A stretch of DNA of 21,029 bases from a virus, in the IMG/VR virus record IMGVR_UViG_3300047491_000622, positions 1-21,029 of that record; one strand, given 5' to 3'. The position numbers and the translations under genes are program-made. The notes beneath the pieces were generated by a model that saw only the letters and a program-made list of their open reading frames with translations, made no database searches and was not told where the DNA came from. Below, in pieces: positions 2,237 through 21,029 of the stretch. How positions within the stretch are numbered: the stretch's first letter is position 1; each line of letters starts with the position of its first letter.

Positions 2237-3370
2237 GTGTGCGGCATAGCTGGTTACATCGGAAAATCCAAAGATATGGGCGTTTCGTTCTCTCTTCTTT
2301 CTTGCCTCTTCAAGCGAGTTGAATCACGGGGTATGGATGCTGCAGGCTACTGGATGTCTGAGTTTGGCGAAAATGGAAGGGTTCATTACCACAAGCAACC
2401 AGGGAAATCCAGTGACCTCGTTGGTTCAGAAAGGTGGCTTGCAAACTCACGGGTTGATGCAAATCTTGCTCTTGTGCATGCACGGGGAGCAAGCAAAGGA
2501 AGTGGAAGTCCACTGAGGAACGAGAATAACCACCCATTTGTCAGCAAAAGCAGAAATCTGGCTGTCATCCACAATGGCAAGGTTGATGACATTGAGTACC
2601 GTGAGATAGTGCGAAGGTACAGGGTTGGGTCTGAATGTGACAGCGAGGTTTTTCTGAGGATATTTGAGCAAGCTGCTCACATATACGGCGACTCAGAACT
2701 TGATGGTTATGTTGGCGATATGCCAGAGCGTCATAGGATGGCTGGAATTAAGGACATATTTTCACTTATAAGCGAAGGCCACATGGCCGTTGGCATAGGT
2801 GAGTGGAAGCCAAACAACTCTAGAAACCTATGGCTTTTTAGGAATAGGCATAGACCATTGTGGGTCGCAGACCTGCGGTTGGAGCTAGGCCAAGTATTTT
2901 TCTTCTCCGAGCCAGGCATATGGAAGGATTCCGTTCGTGAAATAAACCACACATCTATTGCGAACGCAAAGATAGCCGAGGTTCCAGAGGATGAGGTCTG
3001 GCATTTCCAAACGGATTGCCAGATGGTTTATGCTGGCAAGCCATCTAGACACACGGTTGTGCGCACCGATCCGAGGCCATTGCAGCGCCCAGGCGCAAAG
3101 CTTGATTTTGCGGTGGATGATGTGACCATTGATGTGGTTACTACTTTAAATGATATGGCACAGGATGAATCATCCGATGATGATGACAAGCTGCTTGGTG
3201 TGGTTGAAGGCCACATCAAGAAGATAGCTGAAACATGCCAGAACATCTACGCAACATCTCAAGTGTTGCTAAGGTGCAAATCAATAGGTGTCTCGGACAT
3301 CACGCAGGTTGCGCAGATGCTTGAGGAGCATAGCAACAGCCTCTTGGAGATCGAGAGGTTGTTTGGGTAG
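2237..3370 (+). CDS. Stand-alone class II (Ntn) glutamine amidotransferase
   Basis: Likely releases ammonia from glutamine; the acceptor is unknown. The GTG start puts Cys2 right after Met, as required for an N-terminal nucleophile; AGGAG lies 6 bases upstream. Residues 1-9 (MCGIAGYIG), RG 31-32, HARG 81-84, NHPF 98-101, oxyanion residues Asn113-Gly114 in IHNG and Asp135 in SECDSEV line up with the glutaminase domain of GlmS-type enzymes. The domain ends near residue 260. No SIS/isomerase, asparagine synthetase or PRPP domain follows; instead there is an acidic stretch (DESSDDDDK, 310-318) and a helical, coiled-coil-like end. It would have to work with a separate synthase or as a plain glutaminase. 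It lies 9 bases after a possible head protein and one gene from CTP synthase, another glutamine user. Confidence 0.88.
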   Translation: MCGIAGYIGKSKDMGVSFSLLSCLFKRVESRGMDAAGYWMSEFGENGRVHYHKQPGKSSDLVGSERWLANSRVDANLALVHARGASKGSGSPLRNENNHPFVSKSRNLAVIHNGKVDDIEYREIVRRYRVGSECDSEVFLRIFEQAAHIYGDSELDGYVGDMPERHRMAGIKDIFSLISEGHMAVGIGEWKPNNSRNLWLFRNRHRPLWVADLRLELGQVFFFSEPGIWKDSVREINHTSIANAKIAEVPEDEVWHFQTDCQMVYAGKPSRHTVVRTDPRPLQRPGAKLDFAVDDVTIDVVTTLNDMAQDESSDDDDKLLGVVEGHIKKIAETCQNIYATSQVLLRCKSIGVSDITQVAQMLEEHSNSLLEIERLFG

Positions 3371-3378
3371 GGGGCAAG

Positions 3379-3942
3379 ATGAAGAATGGTTTTGATGATG
3401 AAGATTTTGTTGTTGATGACATAATAAGCAATCGTGACAAAAGAAACAAATCAAAGAAAAAGGTCAATGGCAAGCAAAAAGGAAGTCGTGTCGAGCGTGA
3501 ATTGACCAAGATACTCAACAGTCGTTTCAATTGCGAGGACTTCTCAAGATCAGTTGGTAGTGGCAATAGGTGGGGTCAAGTAAACCATTTGCCCAAGCAC
3601 GCCAGAGATGTGTTCAGTGGTGATTTGATCGTTCCAGCGAATTTTAAGTTTTGCTTAGAATCAAAGGGTGGCTATGATGGGATTGATCTAAATTCCATAT
3701 TCCACCATGGCAGCAACGAACTTGATAGCTTCCTTGAACAAGCGCAGAATGATGCAATCAGATGCAATAGGAAGCCTATGCTATGTTGGAAGAGAACCAG
3801 AAGATCTTGGCTTGCATTTTTGAAGACAGATGACCTTGATGGTAGGTATTTCAAGCATTCGATTAAATATGGCGAATGGACTGGCGTGTCTCTTGATTCG
3901 CTTTTGCAGATTGAGGATGAATTCTTTTTGTCAACCGATTGA
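3379..3942 (+). CDS. Putative PD-(D/E)XK nuclease (resolvase/VRR-NUC-like)
   Basis: A 187-residue protein with a lysine-rich N-terminus (19-36) followed by a pattern typical of small PD-(D/E)XK nucleases: Glu40 in the first helix (RVEREL), RSVGSG (57-62), Asp82 in SGDLIV, then Glu94-x-Lys96 in LESKGG, and Gln121 in a following helix. These would be the metal ligands and catalytic lysine. Family context suggests a Holliday-junction resolvase-like or structure-specific DNA nuclease used in replication, recombination or packaging, but substrate cannot be read from sequence. It starts 8 bases after the amidotransferase stop, with a G-run near 3370-3374 as ribosome site. Its stop codon is part of a strong hairpin shared with the next gene. 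Nuclease fold fairly likely; specific role unknown. Confidence 0.7.
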   Translation: MKNGFDDEDFVVDDIISNRDKRNKSKKKVNGKQKGSRVERELTKILNSRFNCEDFSRSVGSGNRWGQVNHLPKHARDVFSGDLIVPANFKFCLESKGGYDGIDLNSIFHHGSNELDSFLEQAQNDAIRCNRKPMLCWKRTRRSWLAFLKTDDLDGRYFKHSIKYGEWTGVSLDSLLQIEDEFFLSTD

Positions 3943-3984: not shown

Positions 3985-3992
3985 GGTGGGGC

Positions 3993-4316
3993 ATGAATTT
4001 CATAAACACTTCGTTTGCTGATAATGTGACCACTGTTTCATTCAAGGACGCAAGAATATTTGACGAGACATGCATAATCGCCCTTGGTGATGAACTCATT
4101 GATGTCGCATTAAAATCTGAAACTGGTCATTCTGTAGTCATTGATTTCAACAAGGTGAATTACTTATCAAGCGCCGCACTTGGCAAATTGATAACTATGA
4201 ACAAGCGCCTTAAAGAAAAAGAATGCAACCTGAAGCTTATCAATATAAGTGATGACATCATGGAGATATTCGAGATAACAAGGTTGAATCGCTTCTTTTT
4301 GATTGAAAAATCTTAG
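3993..4316 (+). CDS. STAS-domain protein (anti-sigma factor antagonist-like)
   Basis: A single STAS domain of 107 residues, the SpoIIAA/RsbV fold that usually binds an anti-sigma factor or switch kinase and is controlled by phosphorylation. The core strand-helix signature is VVIDFNKVNYLSSAALGKLI (48-67), with Ser59-Ser60 at the usual switch loop, followed by the typical helix and a C-terminal EITRLNRFF segment (94-102). Aligned with SpoIIAA, the exact phospho-serine position may be Ala61, so phospho-control is uncertain. The ATG at 3993 is preferred over an in-frame ATG at 3939, which overlaps the nuclease gene and would encode the hairpin. The stop overlaps the end of the convergent VWA gene by a few bases. 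Partner in the host or phage unknown. Confidence 0.85.
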   Translation: MNFINTSFADNVTTVSFKDARIFDETCIIALGDELIDVALKSETGHSVVIDFNKVNYLSSAALGKLITMNKRLKEKECNLKLINISDDIMEIFEITRLNRFFLIEKS

Positions 4317-5599
4317 ATGAAATCATCAAGCATAAATATTTTGCATCCTTTGTCAATCTGCGAAATTGTTCCATTCTTTGTTATGAACCAATGCCACATT
4401 TTTGGCTGTTCTGGTCGCAAAGTTTCACCATAGCCGTAGCCATCAGTGAGCACAAATATGTTTGGATGCTTGCCAGTATCCTTGGCGTGCTGTTTCACGA
4501 ATGTATTTATTGGGAAAAAGTTTGTGCCGCCGCCACCATATATCTTCCTTGAGTCAACAGATGTCTCTTTTATGCTCGTGTCAAAGCAGAATATCCTTGT
4601 GTTGAACCTTGATTTGTTGAGGCTCCCAGCTGCCGCAAAAAATCTGTCCTTGTTCCCTATGCAGCTGCCTGATGTGTCCATGAAAAAGAAAACATCAACC
4701 TTTGATTCAACCTTCACTGGTTGGTAGGTCTCAACCTCACTCGGGAGGAACAAACACCTTTCTAGGAGCGTGTGGCTTCTGGATACCCTGAGCCACTGTT
4801 CCGCTATGCCGTAGCTGTCTTGTGTCCTCTCCCTTTCCCAAGCTTTTATGACAGTTTCCCAGCGCCGTTTCTGCTTAAGCTTGGTTGGGTCGACATGTAT
4901 CCACATGCCATTCCCTAGAGTTGCGAATGATTTATTGCTGTGTTTTTTCAGAAGGTCTTTTATTGCCGACATGTCATCGTTGACCAAATCCTTGACCATG
5001 TCAGAAAGGAATTCTTCCCAATCTTCGCCAAAAAATCCATGATCATCCAGACACCCTTCATTTACCCCGGCAGCTATTATTGGCATCCCATCGCCAAATT
5101 TATCCTTGTATAAGTTGTAGTAATATTCAAAGTGCATATCTTCGCTTACTTTTTCGCCCTTGAACACACCATCAACCCAGCAAAGGGATTGCTCACCACC
5201 ATTTGTCCCAAGCGCAGCAGATATTTCACCCTCCACAGCGTCCCTTGAGAATCCAAATCCTTTGACCAGGGTGTGGTTGACGACAAGATCAAGGCATATA
5301 TTGGCTGCCACCTTGTCCATTGAAAGCGTGCTTTTTGTTCTTTTGCCATGGCCAAGAATTATATGGAGCATCTCATGGCATATGCAGAATAGTCGTCCTT
5401 GTGTGCCAAGTGAAGCCCAGAATTCTGGGTTGAATATGAAGTTTATGCAGTTTCCCGTCTTGTCAAACTCAACTGCCGCTGTTGGAACCATGTCGGATAG
5501 TGATGGCCTTCCAACAGACCAAAGCTTGTAGAAAATGGCATGATGATTCTCAAGCTGCATGGCTATCTCAGACCACTCCATGGAGCTTATGGTGTTCAT
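4313..5599 (-). CDS. VWA-domain protein with HExxH metallopeptidase-like domain (DUF2201-type)
   Basis: Two-domain protein of 428 residues. The N-terminal half carries a zincin motif, His75-Glu76-x-x-His79 in CHEMLHIILGH, as in the putative metallopeptidase domain of DUF2201-type proteins. The C-terminal part (about 300-428) is a von Willebrand A domain with an intact MIDAS: DTSGS (308-312), Thr359 in GGGGTNF and Asp386 in LTDGYG. Such proteins are usually paired with MoxR AAA+ ATPases and are thought to help them load or remodel metal-containing or multi-subunit complexes. It starts 2 bases after the MoxR gene here, so the pair is one operon. It has no signal peptide or membrane helix and should be cytoplasmic. 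Its stop overlaps the convergent STAS gene. Substrate unknown; the protease activity of the HExxH domain is unproven. Confidence 0.9.
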   Translation of the reverse strand: MNTISSMEWSEIAMQLENHHAIFYKLWSVGRPSLSDMVPTAAVEFDKTGNCINFIFNPEFWASLGTQGRLFCICHEMLHIILGHGKRTKSTLSMDKVAANICLDLVVNHTLVKGFGFSRDAVEGEISAALGTNGGEQSLCWVDGVFKGEKVSEDMHFEYYYNLYKDKFGDGMPIIAAGVNEGCLDDHGFFGEDWEEFLSDMVKDLVNDDMSAIKDLLKKHSNKSFATLGNGMWIHVDPTKLKQKRRWETVIKAWERERTQDSYGIAEQWLRVSRSHTLLERCLFLPSEVETYQPVKVESKVDVFFFMDTSGSCIGNKDRFFAAAGSLNKSRFNTRIFCFDTSIKETSVDSRKIYGGGGTNFFPINTFVKQHAKDTGKHPNIFVLTDGYGYGETLRPEQPKMWHWFITKNGTISQIDKGCKIFMLDDFI

Positions 5600-5601
5600 T
5601 T

Positions 5602-6669
5602 CTAGCTGTTTCCAAGAGCCTGCATTGTTTCGCTTAATTTTTTTGCAACATCTGGGTTCTGTGTGAAGAAGCGCTTTATTTTTGTAATCAGTTTGGAATC
5701 GCTGTTTGCCCTCATGATGTCATTGATGACAATGCCATACTTTTCAACGATTGTGCACATGGAAAGTGTGTGCTTGAGAACCTTTTCATTTGTTGACATG
5801 AGGCACGCAAGCTTCTCGGTTCCAACCAATGGCATGAACCACTCCATGAGGGTTTTGCTTTCTTGGATGTACTTTATGGCAGATGAGAAGTTGTTCTCAT
5901 TGCAGAGCCATGTCTTGGCGGAGTCCCTATCATTGTCACTCATGAACTTTGATAGTTTGTCGCCAGTCGGCCCCTCACGCAAGGTCTGTATCAATTTGGA
6001 AACACCACTTTCCTGTGGAAGGTAATCACGGAGGTCACCTCCTCTTGAATAGGCCATCATGGCGTAATCAAGTCGCCTTGGTGAGACAATGTTCTTTGTG
6101 TCATCATCAAGCTCTGACCACCATGATATGGCGCCATCTGCGGTGGTCTTTCCAAACTTGTCTCTGAAATACTGGGCGTCTGGTCTGTAATCAATTCGTT
6201 TGTGGACTTCAAATCGGTCTAGTTGCGCCTGGTCAAGCTTTTCGACATCATACACTTCAGCGTCGTCATCTGGGTTTATGGCGGCCCACACCATTCTCAG
6301 ATTTGGGAATTTTTCCCCATTGATGCTTTTGAATTGTATGAGCTCCAGAACTGCATTCCTAATCTTTTTTGGTGACCTATTGAATTCATCCAAGAATATC
6401 GCCTCGACCTCCCCAAGGGCAAAGTCGAGTGGCCTTACCATTTTTATGAAACTCACATCCTCGCCAGCTATGATTTTTGTGGCCTCTTTTGGAATACCAA
6501 CAAAATCAGTCCATGGGTCCATGGTTGCGGCGCTGAAGTATTTCCATTTGACCTTGTTTCTTTCAAATGCGGACTTAATCATGGCAGTTTTTCCAACGCC
6601 ATGCTTGCCAATCAATAGTACATTCTGGTTGTGGGCTATCCACTCATCAAGCTTGTAGTCGATGTTCAT
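5602..6669 (-). CDS. MoxR-family AAA+ ATPase
   Basis: A 355-residue AAA+ ATPase. Walker A is GKHGVGKT (21-28), Walker B AIFLDEF (90-96), sensor 1 is Asn132 in AAINP, the arginine-finger-like DRF lies at 151-153 and a sensor 2-like SPRRLDYA at 196-203. Residues 210-355 form a helical lid and an unassigned C-terminal region. MoxR proteins act as chaperone-like remodellers together with VWA proteins, and the VWA/HExxH gene follows after only 2 bases. GGAGG sits 5 bases before the ATG. Upstream are 51 noncoding, AT-rich bases and then the baseplate-side genes, so it may be the distal part of a late operon or have its own promoter (no convincing one was seen). Family assignment is firm; the role in a phage is inference, possibly virion assembly or inactivation of a host complex. 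Confidence 0.92.
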   Translation of the reverse strand: MNIDYKLDEWIAHNQNVLLIGKHGVGKTAMIKSAFERNKVKWKYFSAATMDPWTDFVGIPKEATKIIAGEDVSFIKMVRPLDFALGEVEAIFLDEFNRSPKKIRNAVLELIQFKSINGEKFPNLRMVWAAINPDDDAEVYDVEKLDQAQLDRFEVHKRIDYRPDAQYFRDKFGKTTADGAISWWSELDDDTKNIVSPRRLDYAMMAYSRGGDLRDYLPQESGVSKLIQTLREGPTGDKLSKFMSDNDRDSAKTWLCNENNFSSAIKYIQESKTLMEWFMPLVGTEKLACLMSTNEKVLKHTLSMCTIVEKYGIVINDIMRANSDSKLITKIKRFFTQNPDVAKKLSETMQALGNS

Positions 6670-7467: not shown

Positions 7468-7617
7468 TTACTTTCTCTTGTTGCTCGCCTTGCGACGCTC
7501 GGCATCCATGGCTTCGTTTTCTTTTTCTTTCTGCTCAATGAATCGCTGCACTATCCACTGCCTAACATTTATGGGCATTGCCAGCGTCTTCCCCATGTCT
7601 TGTTGCAAGTGGTACAT
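7468..7617 (-). CDS. Small basic protein downstream of gp26-like gene (possible -1 frameshift product)
   Basis: From the first ATG this frame encodes 49 residues (MYHLQQDMGK...), with PINVRQWIVQRFIEQKEKE in the middle and a basic end. The frame stays open upstream to the slippery site at 7695-7701, adding 26 codons including GKNLLEEIFFF, which reads as part of the same domain. No ATG, GTG or TTG exists in that extension. The only Shine-Dalgarno-like bases before the ATG (AGAAGAA) are one arm of a 7-bp inverted repeat (7620-7636). The pattern LEEIFxxxYHL...PIxxRxW recalls small tail or baseplate assembly proteins next to gp26 in T4-like phages, where T4 itself has gp51. Either it initiates weakly at 7617 or it is a C-terminal extension of the gp26-like protein (about 410 residues in total). 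Confidence 0.7.
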   Translation of the reverse strand: MYHLQQDMGKTLAMPINVRQWIVQRFIEQKEKENEAMDAERRKASNKRK

Positions 7618-7655
7618 GAAGAAGAATATTTCTTCTAGGAGGTTTTTGCCTAGTG

Positions 7656-8699
7656 TTAGGCTTGGGTGTTCTTTTCCCTTTTCCTCCGGGGGAAGAAAAA
7701 ATTTGCTTCAAGTGGTAGCTCAATTGAGAATTCGGCTTGACAGCTTGGGCAGTTGATCTCGACATTTGTATCCACGCCAAACGGTGGCTCATTGATGATG
7801 CTGCGGATGTACGAAACATCGTTGATTGGAAGATTCTTGAGGAGAATCTGCAGTTCCATCTTATCGGTCACGCCGTCGATCTCATCAATCAGTTGCGCCG
7901 TCCTATATGTAAGCGTGTCATCGGTTGCTGTGTCGCCAAACATCTTGAGTCGTCTTTCACGGTACTCATTGATCTCCTGCTCATCCCTGCCAGTGGAAAG
8001 TCTGTATTTGAATTTGAGTTTCGAGTTTGGCAATGTATCCTCAAGGGCTGGGCCAAATTCGACTGGGCATTGGTTGACATAGAGGCTGCTGAGATCAACA
8101 TTTGTGCTAAACTTTGTAGAGCACTCTGTGCATTTGACCTCAACATCATAGCTGTGGGAGTATGAGATCGTTCGGAGGTACAGAAGAAGGTATGTTCGGT
8201 CTGTCGTGAGCAGGTTTTCAACCTTGAAATCTTCCTTGATGCACTTCTGGAAGATCATGTTTATGGCCTGCCCTTTGCGGACAAATCTTGGGGTTGCCAA
8301 GATCTGCTCTTCTTCGCCAGTCATTGGTCGAATATGAACGATTCCATCGGCTGGTCCATTGGTTCCATCGTAGAATCTGCCCTTGGATGGGAGCTGCACC
8401 TCTTCATATTGCGCAAGGTTGCCCCTCAAGGAGTCAAGAATTTCCTTCAATCTTCCACTTTGGTTGTTTTGGGGGAAGCTGGCTGTTGCCGGGGCTTTGG
8501 AAATGCTTGGTGTGTTGGTCTGGTTTTTTTCACGCAAGGCTCCAAAAGACTGATTTGGCTTCTGCAGTTGCGATTGAGGAGCTTCTGGCTGTTGACCAGA
8601 GTTCTGTTGGTTTAGGGCTTGAAGAAACTCTTGCGGCACATTGCCTTGAATGTTCATGCCGCCTTCACTTTTCTTTAAATTCAAATTTTCATCTGCCAT
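7656..8699 (-). CDS. gp26: Baseplate protein, T4 gp26-like, with two CxxC zinc motifs
   Basis: The 347-residue protein has a disordered Gln/Asn/Pro-rich N-terminus (about 15-80), then a conserved part starting VQLPSKGRFYDG (101-112) and HIRPMTGEEEQIL (122-134). Zinc ligands are probably Cys190/Cys193 and Cys317/Cys320, with a helical stretch rich in Arg and Glu between (237-255). The end ANFFFPRR is typical of gp26-like baseplate proteins of T4-related phages. In T4, gp26 is a baseplate hub-region component; the same place in the virion is inferred. The ATG at 8699 has AGGAG 7 bases upstream and is preferred over an upstream TTG/ATG frame that would run into the divergent gene. It heads a minus-strand operon continuing through 4313. 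The last codons carry the candidate frameshift site. Confidence 0.82.
   Translation of the reverse strand: MADENLNLKKSEGGMNIQGNVPQEFLQALNQQNSGQQPEAPQSQLQKPNQSFGALREKNQTNTPSISKAPATASFPQNNQSGRLKEILDSLRGNLAQYEEVQLPSKGRFYDGTNGPADGIVHIRPMTGEEEQILATPRFVRKGQAINMIFQKCIKEDFKVENLLTTDRTYLLLYLRTISYSHSYDVEVKCTECSTKFSTNVDLSSLYVNQCPVEFGPALEDTLPNSKLKFKYRLSTGRDEQEINEYRERRLKMFGDTATDDTLTYRTAQLIDEIDGVTDKMELQILLKNLPINDVSYIRSIINEPPFGVDTNVEINCPSCQAEFSIELPLEANFFFPRRKREKNTQA
7695..7701 (-). promoter_or_regulatory. Candidate -1 ribosomal frameshift site (U UUU UUC)
   Basis: On the minus strand the heptamer T TTT TTC is in the correct phase of the gp26-like reading frame (codons 334-335, Phe-Phe). A stop in the -1 frame lies just upstream, and after slipping the -1 frame is open through the small downstream gene to 7468. 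Downstream, CUUCCC can pair with GGGAA across about 11 bases, giving a weak stimulatory stem. Zero-frame reading ends 12 codons later at 7656. This is a sequence-based candidate only. Confidence 0.45.
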
Positions 8700-12025: not shown

Positions 12026-12568
12026 ATGGCTAATGAATACCTCAACAACAAAAATTTCGAATCGCTCATATCCAAGTTTATAAAAGTAAAGAAAAACAAA
12101 GTAAAATTTGAAACGCTACTTGAGGAAATCAAGGACACGGAGAAAAGAACCTCTGGCAGGAAAGGCTTCAAGAAGCCAGATTCCTGGAATGAAATTGAAA
12201 AGGAATTTGAGATCCACCTCAAGGAATACAACCACCTCAAGGGCGAACTCACAATCGCCTTCTATCTGCTGTCTGAGAATATAACTCGATACCGAAAGTT
12301 CAACCTCATTGATGCGGATGACGCCATACAAGAGGGTGTGATGATTTGTTTTGAGAAGGTTGACAGGTTTGACCCCAACAAGGGCAAGGCCTTCAATTAC
12401 ATGACAACTTGCATCATAAACCACTTCCGCCAGCTCTACAGAACCGCCAGAAACTACAACGAGCTTAAAAAAAAATATCAGGAGCATCTGAGCGTGAGCA
12501 TGGAGCAGAGGACGATCACCAGCCGTAGCAAGGGCATATATAAAAACCACCACCCGAATGATAGATGA
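12026..12568 (+). CDS. gp55: Late-transcription sigma factor, T4 gp55-like
   Basis: A 180-residue sigma70-related protein. Residues about 70-140 correspond to sigma region 2: ADDAIQEGVMICFEKVDRFDP (97-117, core-RNAP binding helix) and FNYMTTCIINHFRQL (123-137). Lysine-rich helices precede it (10-70). There is no region 4. This matches the pattern of T4 gp55, which directs host RNA polymerase to late promoters. T4 gp55 ends in a hydrophobic/acidic sliding-clamp-binding tail (DFLYE type), but here the end is basic (SRSKGIYKNHHPNDR) and no such tail is visible. AAGGAG lies 5 bases before the ATG. It follows the glycosyltransferase by 28 bases. Identity as a gp55-type sigma is likely; clamp dependence is uncertain. 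Confidence 0.85.
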   Translation: MANEYLNNKNFESLISKFIKVKKNKVKFETLLEEIKDTEKRTSGRKGFKKPDSWNEIEKEFEIHLKEYNHLKGELTIAFYLLSENITRYRKFNLIDADDAIQEGVMICFEKVDRFDPNKGKAFNYMTTCIINHFRQLYRTARNYNELKKKYQEHLSVSMEQRTITSRSKGIYKNHHPNDR

Positions 12569-12652: not shown

Positions 12653-12907
12653 ATGAGCAATCTTATTGAAGCACTTGAAAAACAAGAACTAATACAGAAA
12701 TTGATAGAGAAAGGATATGCGCCACTCATAGACGCACTTCTTGATAATGAGAAGGATGTCTATACCAAGAAGGGTAGGCTCAACAAAAGCGGCGCATGTC
12801 GTGTGCTTGGTTGGAAGCCAAAAGAGCTGGAACAAGCTTTGGAGGCATGCCGTGAGATTCTGAAGAACGACTTGTTCTTCAATGATAGCGAGGAAGAAGA
12901 GGATTAG
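12653..12907 (+). CDS. Small acidic-tailed protein next to gp55-like gene
   Basis: 84 residues, mainly helical. The middle, GRLNKSGACRVLGWKPKELEQALE (41-64), has helix-turn-helix character; the end, NDLFFNDSEEEED, is a hydrophobic patch followed by an acidic run. T4 late co-activator gp33 also ends in a hydrophobic/acidic clamp-binding motif (DFLL), so a gp33-like role is a possible but unproven reading; the rest does not resemble gp33 as I remember it. ATG 12653 has AAGGA 4-5 bases upstream and is chosen over ATG 12623, which has no ribosome site. The stop overlaps the convergent tail-tube paralogue by 4 bases. Confidence 0.7.
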   Translation: MSNLIEALEKQELIQKLIEKGYAPLIDALLDNEKDVYTKKGRLNKSGACRVLGWKPKELEQALEACREILKNDLFFNDSEEEED

Positions 12908-13413
12908 ACCCTTTCCCAATATGCCCTATCATACCTAATGGTGAGATCGATATAAACGACACCAGAGTCGCTGTGGTCGAGATCACCAAAGTCGGCGCTC
13001 TCTATGTACATGTTTTCAAATATCCATCTCTCAATTACCTCGCCACACCCATCGTAGAGCTCGAGCTTTCCTTCCTTTTTGAAGCCATCTGTTGCATATT
13101 TGAACTTTACCGAACTTTGGTCAACCTCATACATAAGCTTTATCCATTCTATGACTGGATGCCTATTTTTTTTTATGTCAAATAGGGTTAGCGTCACAGG
13201 CTTCCAGTCTGGTTTGCCTGGGAAATATATTGTCTCATGTAGGTGTTGGGCCTCCATGCTTTTGAATGACAAGCTTGGCCTTGCTGATTTGTTTGGTGGC
13301 AAGGCGTTGATTGGTTCATCTGATACATCTGGTATCTTCATCAGCCATCTATACTTGCGCTTAAAGCATGCATCTGTCTTTTCAAGACCGTAATCAAAGC
13401 TCATTCTTGCCAT
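12904..13413 (-). CDS. Tail tube paralogue (T4 gp19 family)
   Basis: A 169-residue protein clearly paralogous to the next gene upstream. Shared features in order: FKRKYRW near residue 18, ARPSLSF, a LHETIYFPGKPDWKPVTLT segment, a YDGCGE turn, then ADFGDLDHSDSGVVYIDLTIRY near the end. In T4, gp19 forms the tail tube and the related gp54 and gp48 start the tube on the baseplate, so this copy could be a tube-initiator, terminator or minor tube protein. GGAGATAAC precedes the ATG at 13413, which is preferred over a TTG 18 bases further out. It follows a terminator-like hairpin after the main tube gene. Its stop overlaps the convergent plus-strand gene. Confidence 0.85.
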   Translation of the reverse strand: MARMSFDYGLEKTDACFKRKYRWLMKIPDVSDEPINALPPNKSARPSLSFKSMEAQHLHETIYFPGKPDWKPVTLTLFDIKKNRHPVIEWIKLMYEVDQSSVKFKYATDGFKKEGKLELYDGCGEVIERWIFENMYIESADFGDLDHSDSGVVYIDLTIRYDRAYWERV

Positions 13414-13433
13414 GTTATCTCCAATATGCAAAT

Positions 13434-13494: not shown

Positions 13495-14073
13495 CTAGCA
13501 GCCCAAGCAAACAGGAGTTGGGTTGGTTCCGCAAAGATTTCTGTAGATAGCTTGATAGTACCTAAGGGTCAATTCAACCGTTACTTCTTCGGATGAACTG
13601 TAGTCAAGATCGCCGAAGTTAACGGCTGATGGCCACACACCTCGGAGTTCCCAAGATTCAAGCTCTGTACCGCAGCCGTCATACATGACCAAGGTTCCCT
13701 TGCCAGCCCAGCCGCCGTTGTTTCCGTCGCCTTGGATGGTGGTCTGCTTCATCATGTTGCTGCCTTGATCTTGGAAGTTGTAGATCGAGGCCAGCCAGCT
13801 GTAAAGCTGAGTGATGCCGTTGTTCTGTGAGCGAGCGACATCATAGTAGGTCACGGTGATGGTTTCCCAGCTTGCCTTGCCTGGGATCCACATCTTGCCA
13901 TGGAGGTAATTGATTTCAGTTTCCTCAATGGTCAGGTTGGGGCGGCTTGCCAACTTTACAAAGTTCTTGCCAACCTTCTGGCCATTCCATTGAACTTCAA
14001 AGGTCCATCTATACTTTCTTTTGAATATCAGGTTGGTGTTTGTGGCCAACTCATTTAAATGCATTAGTGCCAT
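13495..14073 (-). CDS. gp19: Tail tube protein, T4 gp19-like
   Basis: A 192-residue protein of the gp19 tail tube family; it polymerises into the inner tube of the contractile tail. Features: FKRKYRWTFEV (17-27), ASRPNLTIEETEINYLHGKMW (42-62), WETITVTYYDV, YDGCGTELESWEL, AVNFGDLDYSSSEEVTVELTLRYYQAIY near the end. The extreme C-terminus is cysteine- and proline-containing (CGTNPTPVCLGC), unlike T4. It directly follows the sheath gene (22 bases), the conserved T4 order 18-19, and has GGAGAG about 8 bases upstream. The longer loop at about 100-115 (Gly/Asn-rich) is absent from the paralogue. Confidence 0.9.
   Translation of the reverse strand: MALMHLNELATNTNLIFKRKYRWTFEVQWNGQKVGKNFVKLASRPNLTIEETEINYLHGKMWIPGKASWETITVTYYDVARSQNNGITQLYSWLASIYNFQDQGSNMMKQTTIQGDGNNGGWAGKGTLVMYDGCGTELESWELRGVWPSAVNFGDLDYSSSEEVTVELTLRYYQAIYRNLCGTNPTPVCLGC

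Positions 14074-19662: not shown

Positions 19663-21029
<1,367 letters not shown>

Follow-up and report, generated by a model that had tools for sequence, protein, structure and literature searches.

The window, by which we mean the whole 21,029-nt stretch of viral DNA analysed here, carries on its minus strand a gp26-like gene (designated G) whose product matches the T4_baseplate family (PF12322; E = 1.2e-21, 77.8 bits against a cut-off of 24.5). The match aligns protein residues 98-335 with positions 4-218 of the 219-position profile, and the protein also matches PHROG_150 (E = 9e-27). No second PF12322 match was found among the scanned proteins of the window, which is a 21-kb genome fragment. 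The AF2 model of G (pLDDT 88) matches the gp26-like protein of phage SP-15 with a TM score of 0.80-0.85. Order in the modelled fold extends roughly as far as the FFF site near the protein's end, and the 0-frame tail beyond it is disordered (pLDDT < 50 for residues 255-263), which places the candidate slip site described below at a domain boundary. A fold search of G against solved tail-assembly chaperones returned no significant match (HK97 gp13, 2ob9, at E = 3.9 and TMt 0.33).

The gp26-like gene ends, on the minus strand, with GAA GCA AAT TTT TTC TTC CCC CGG AGG AAA AGG GAA AAG AAC ACC CAA GCC TAA and contains the slippery heptamer T_TTT_TTC (Table 1). The X base of the heptamer is a third codon position, the phase is that needed for a tandem -1 slip, and the 0-frame stop lies 15 codons downstream. 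Two codons before the heptamer the -1 frame is closed by a stop; from the heptamer it has no stop over 77 codons, down to position 7468. From the two slipped Phe codons, it runs for 26 codons without ATG, GTG or TTG until the ATG at 7617. The first-pass annotation had described this arrangement at 7468-7720 (the in-phase heptamer at 7701-7695, a -1 frame closed just upstream and then open into a small gene, and an extension free of start codons), and the minus-strand sequence agrees with it on every one of these points, coordinates included. Reading through the heptamer in the -1 frame would append an extension (designated T) to G and yield a predicted fusion of 333 + 77 = 410 amino acids, with the junction peptide LEANFFLPPEEK.

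Table 1. Positions of the features at the 3' end of the gp26-like gene.
Feature	Position	Strand	Remarks
gp26-like gene, coding part (347 aa; G, probable short tail-assembly chaperone)	7659..8699	(-)	0 frame; PF12322, PHROG_150, AF2 model
Stop TAA of gp26-like gene	7656-7658	(-)	0 frame
Slippery heptamer T_TTT_TTC, in phase	7695..7701	(-)	codons 334-335 = TTT TTC; invariant in 47/47 relatives
-1 frame T extension (FFLPPEEKGKEHPSLTLGKNLLEEIFFF...KR), 77 codons from heptamer	7468..7701	(-)	open in all relatives; coding by codon-position differences; three helices (AF2)
-1 frame stop TAA	7468-7470	(-)	
0-frame tail after heptamer (FPRRKREKNTQA plus stop), dual-coding with -1 frame	7656..7694	(-)	constrained -1-frame codon positions; disordered in G model
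49-codon ATG ORF	7468..7617	(-)	ATG replaced in most relatives; start would cut EEIFFF core
7-bp inverted repeat AGAAGAA-ATA-TTCTTCT	7618..7640 (approximate limits)	(-)	just before ATG 7617

About 40 in-phase heptamers occur within genes of the window. As in-phase heptamers arise by chance, the one in the gp26-like gene is weak evidence when taken alone. A second heptamer, A_AAA_AAA (approximately 5644-5638, minus strand), served as a control. It lies 14 codons before the end of an AAA ATPase gene (5602-6669) and opens a long -1 frame into a metallopeptidase-like gene (4313-5599, minus strand). We rejected it as a second frameshift site: it is kept solely in L001 and L002 among the relatives and is, therefore, probably a chance occurrence.

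We collected relatives of the gp26-like locus from an IMG/VR scan (44 loci) and from further searches, which added three loci of the same clade and LR756511. The clade comprises 47 loci with a readable gene end, 28 of them non-redundant at 95%; L001 is identical to the window sequence and thus not independent. No relative was found in the genome contigs searched and, as a result, no host or prophage was identified. The first-pass annotation had proposed aligning homologues to see whether the heptamer is conserved and the -1 frame open, and this is so: every one of the 47 loci has T_TTT_TTC in phase and a -1 frame that continues without interruption into one conserved domain. Among them is LR756511, which is 43% identical. 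Furthermore, the two heptamer Phe codons (TTT and TTC) are the sole codon-invariant columns among the 111 that are conserved in amino acid and degenerate across the 28 sequences. The third, adjacent Phe is TTC in 96% of the sequences, and all other conserved Phe columns reach 57-68%. The codon preceding the Phe pair varies among AAT, AGT and GGT (Asn, Ser, Gly) and is always xxT. Hence, the slippery codons are conserved beyond the need for the amino acids.

The pattern of substitutions indicates that the -1 frame encodes protein. By -1-frame codon position, sequence pairs differ by 0.33/0.22/0.58 within the T core and by 0.35/0.18/0.25 where the -1 and 0 frames overlap, with all three positions constrained in the overlap. 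The conserved T domain has the consensus [LA]EE[IV]FFFxYHxxxxxxxxxxPINxRKWMIERFIxQKExEN, and AF2 predicts three helices in the extension, the first spanning extension residues 13-31. A fold search with the T extension gave no significant match. The ATG at 7617 corresponds to residue 29 of the extension; a protein starting there would begin past the EEIFFF core and retain little of the first helix. At this position most relatives have Ser, Gln or Leu. The first-pass annotation had read GKNLLEEIFFF in the extension as the natural beginning of the domain, a reading upheld by the conserved EEIFFF core and by the start of the first predicted helix upstream of the ATG. It had also named homologues with a normal start for the small gene as the finding that would speak against frameshifting; in most clade relatives no start codon precedes the T core. 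Because the ATG is mostly absent and the first predicted helix starts upstream of it, the 49-residue ORF is most likely a truncation of the T domain introduced by ORF calling rather than a separate gene. The 7-bp inverted repeat noted before this ATG is real, and its bases are the coding letters of the conserved EEIFFF (GAAGAAATATTCTTCTTC), with alignment columns that follow the coding sequence. The repeat is a by-product of the EEIFFF codons and, as it encodes the conserved core, no regulatory role is needed to account for it.

The same arrangement extends beyond the clade. A scan with the Sf-FS3 protein recovered 80 cyanophage-type loci (61 distinct, 41 non-redundant), and in 61 of the 61 distinct loci the heptamer joins gp26 to a "too short" gp51, with T in the -1 frame. 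Codon-invariant columns number 2 of 84 in the 41 non-redundant loci and are exactly the heptamer. The combination of heptamer and -1-frame T was also found in Atu_ph07, Sf-FS3 and IC12 (RL38J1 has TTTTTTG), as well as in syn9, ME01, P-TIM68, Mendera, phiAS5/phiWae14 and ValKK3; the hosts of phages with the heptamer include Stenotrophomonas, Aeromonas, Vibrio (ValKK3), Rhizobium and Agrobacterium. Ackermannviridae and some Vibrio and Pseudomonas phages (L091, L093, L094, L095 and L098) also encode T in the -1 frame, but the junction has just one Phe (xTT TTC) and lacks a canonical heptamer.

We also identified a sister clade that encodes T in the +1 frame, which is equivalent to -2. A +1 T is present in SP-15, LIS04, GXN1, LR756508, Mel-JY01, Immutovirus and RM378, together with loci L059-L072, L074-L076, L078 and L079 (L061 is SP-15 again and not an extra member). 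Loci L047, L048 (SP-15, after 6690), L049, L050, L051, L053 and L054 likewise have T in +1. In this clade the T frame runs without a stop through the corresponding Phe-Phe/Leu position, where TTT or CTT commonly precedes TGG, a site resembling the CTT_T of RF2. Two of its loci (L073 and L077) have a T with a longer N-terminus and an ATG of its own adjoining the G stop, possibly reflecting a loss of recoding. The T profile of the +1 clade matches the T of the window at E = 2e-12. Direct profile matches of the window T to cyanophage T and T4 gp51 were not significant; the window T is tied to them through gene position and the +1 clade.

On this comparative evidence, it is highly probable that the gp26-like gene encodes a short tail-assembly chaperone and that a -1 slip at T_TTT_TTC yields a long, G-T form. 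A minority of ribosomes with tRNA-Phe in the P and A sites would step back by one nucleotide, from UUU UUC to UUU UUU, and continue in the -1 frame through the 75-residue helical T domain, producing the 410-residue G-T fusion alongside the 347-residue G. If the lambda scheme applies here, the tape-measure protein would be coated by many copies of G and few of GT, and tail-tube subunits would be brought in by T. No conserved RNA stimulator was found, as family-wide structure is lacking downstream of the site: folding across the clade is no stronger than in control stretches (mean z -0.64 vs -0.39) and the consensus structure is weak (-4.2 kcal/mol, with 1 of 11 pairs covarying). The window's own downstream sequence folds at a z of about -3, and a stem of this type is present in its closest relatives only. 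With a single tRNA-Phe decoding it, a T_TTT_TTC site may be enough for product at the percent level.

An alternative is that T is a separate small gene with its own start (ATG 7617 or a non-ATG codon), coupled to the end of G, and that the heptamer is incidental. The ATG carried by the window, the cyanophage T with an ATG 5 bases past the G stop and annotation as gene gp51, and the longer T adjoining the G stop in L073 and L077 speak in favour of this explanation. However, the ATG of the window lies inside the T domain and is missing in most relatives, which mostly have no alternative start before the core, and the cyanophage start could add free T without replacing the fusion. A separate gene also fails to account for the -1-frame constraint in the overlap and leaves the invariant TTT TTC codons without a reason, making this explanation very unlikely. 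We assign a slightly lower probability still to slippage of RNA polymerase on the T run, which would make a fused mRNA in place of ribosomal frameshifting. The signal is indeed a stretch of six T, and in other systems polymerases do slip on homopolymers, but six T are short for this. Furthermore, what is conserved is precisely xxT TTT TTC, held in codon phase, which is the hallmark of slippage by tandem tRNAs, and RL38J1 keeps the phase with TTTTTTG. Transcriptional slippage has been reviewed (PMC5009743). A homopolymer sequencing or assembly error that splits one ordinary ORF has a negligible probability: a T6 run is a classical place for indel errors, but the same frame relation recurs in the 47 clade loci (from many assemblies), in the 61 cyanophage-type loci and in finished genomes, and the 0-frame tail and its stop persist in a constrained overlap.

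The chaperone function proposed for G and G-T draws on the gene order of relatives. In SP-15, LIS04 and Immutovirus the order is tail tube, gp26-like gene, small ORF and tape measure, which matches the V-G-T-H order of lambda and suggests that G and G-T are the short and long tail-assembly chaperones, respectively. In the window, two tube genes precede the G/T pair, separated from it by a cassette on the opposite strand, and no tape-measure gene adjoining T was identified there. The long form would consist of the short form plus a C-terminal T domain, as indicated at the sequence level by the T homology of the +1 clade and by the layout of T4 gp51. The comparison with lambda G/GT made in the first-pass annotation is apt, given the position of the pair between tail tube and tape measure in those three phages. 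Its assignment of the site to a baseplate gene fares less well, since the gene order in relatives makes the gp26-like protein probably a short tail-assembly chaperone instead of a structural baseplate protein. As is proposed for the window, lambda uses a -1 slip near the 3' end of the small gene to append a short domain from the next ORF, and counterparts are known in long-tailed phages (Levin 1993; Xu 2004; reviewed in PMC5009743). Unlike lambda G, the gp26-like protein belongs to an unrelated family (PF12322, with two CxxC motifs), and its site is T_TTT_TTC. The G-T shift has been described as widely conserved in long-tailed phages "except T4" (PMC5009743), and the shift proposed here would carry the lambda G/GT mechanism over to the T4-type phages, formerly the named exception.

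Cyanophage gp26 and short gp51 (Sullivan et al. 2010, PMC3037559) share the heptamer and the -1 relation with the window. They differ in having the 0-frame stop one codon past the heptamer and a T ATG right after it, 5 bases past the G stop, whereas in the window the 0-frame tail continues for 12 codons and T has no start. Cyanophage gp51 lacks approximately 200 N-terminal residues (PMC3037559), which frameshifting would supply. The -1 shift of the tail-assembly chaperones of Vandenendeviridae and Andersonviridae (PMC12846349) resembles the one proposed here in its T-rich signal at the end of a myovirus chaperone gene and in its comparative argument, but has a GTTTTT motif and concerns other phage families.

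The first-pass annotation knew of no such frameshift at a T4-type gene. The lambda-type likeness that it noted stands; the novelty is smaller than it supposed, as the T4-type chaperone pair has been published already (Vladimirov 2022). According to its title, that study (Vladimirov, Gautam & Davidson 2022, Virology 566:9-15) identified tail-assembly chaperone genes in T4-like phages and proposed a mechanism other than frameshifting. One later paper credits it with "some T4-like phages" that have a short gene and a fused long gene (PMC10885494), and another cites it for poly-T -1 signals in the chaperone genes of T4-like phages (PMC12846349). Going by these two secondary accounts, frameshifting in T4-like phages seems to have been described at least in part. 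Our analysis contributes the uncultured clade of the window, an unusually clear case without a start codon, together with a test of codon invariance run in two independent clades, a sister clade with T in +1, and a tree in which the duplicated T4 pair nests among frameshift members.

In T4 itself, gp26 (208 aa) and residues 1-201 of gp51 both match PF12322. The last 48 residues of gp51 align with cyanophage T (cyanophage gp51) at E = 7e-5, and gp26 ends in EFF plus three residues, at the slip position of its relatives. Thus, T4 shares the family and a T-like gp51 end with the window, but encodes the short and long forms in two genes on opposite strands, without a frameshift. In a maximum-likelihood tree, T4 gp26 and gp51 form one clade (98/92) that falls within the -1 frameshift members, and four changes, the minimum possible, account for the five expression modes. 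The deep joins are unsure because some branches (RM378 and Atu_ph07) are long. We lean towards frameshifting as the ancestral state of the T4-type chaperone pair, with T_TTT_TTC retained in cyanophages, several T4-like groups and the uncultured clade, a +1 reading of the same T domain at the corresponding Phe-Phe position in the sister clade, and an escape by gene duplication in T4, where gp26 would have kept G and gp51 would be a fixed G-T fusion. If so, the short gp51 of cyanophages is not a stand-alone protein. T is currently annotated as a tiny hypothetical gene or as a "baseplate hub assembly catalyst", and hundreds of T4-like phage genomes therefore probably lack the true fused product in their annotation. 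One T domain read by a -1 shift, by a +1 shift or from a duplicated gene would offer a clean system in which to follow the gain, switch and loss of recoding.

Several other genes of the window merit mention. The two tail tube genes are adjacent T4 gp19-like paralogs (PHROG_4542; 12904-13431 and 13495-14073, minus strand). The plus strand encodes a CTP synthase and a protein with a glutamine amidotransferase domain (GATase_6), both phage-borne (57-1697 and 2237-3370). A PDDEXK endonuclease (3379-3942) adjoins the plus-strand gene of a STAS-domain (anti-anti-sigma-like) protein (3990-4316; PF01740, E = 1e-10). We also identified a protein with sigma-70 region 2 (12026-12568, plus strand; PF04542, E = 2.5e-8), possibly a late sigma factor similar to T4 gp55, and collagen-like Gly-X-Y repeats (TGATG...) on the minus strand (20600-21029) that run off the end of the window.
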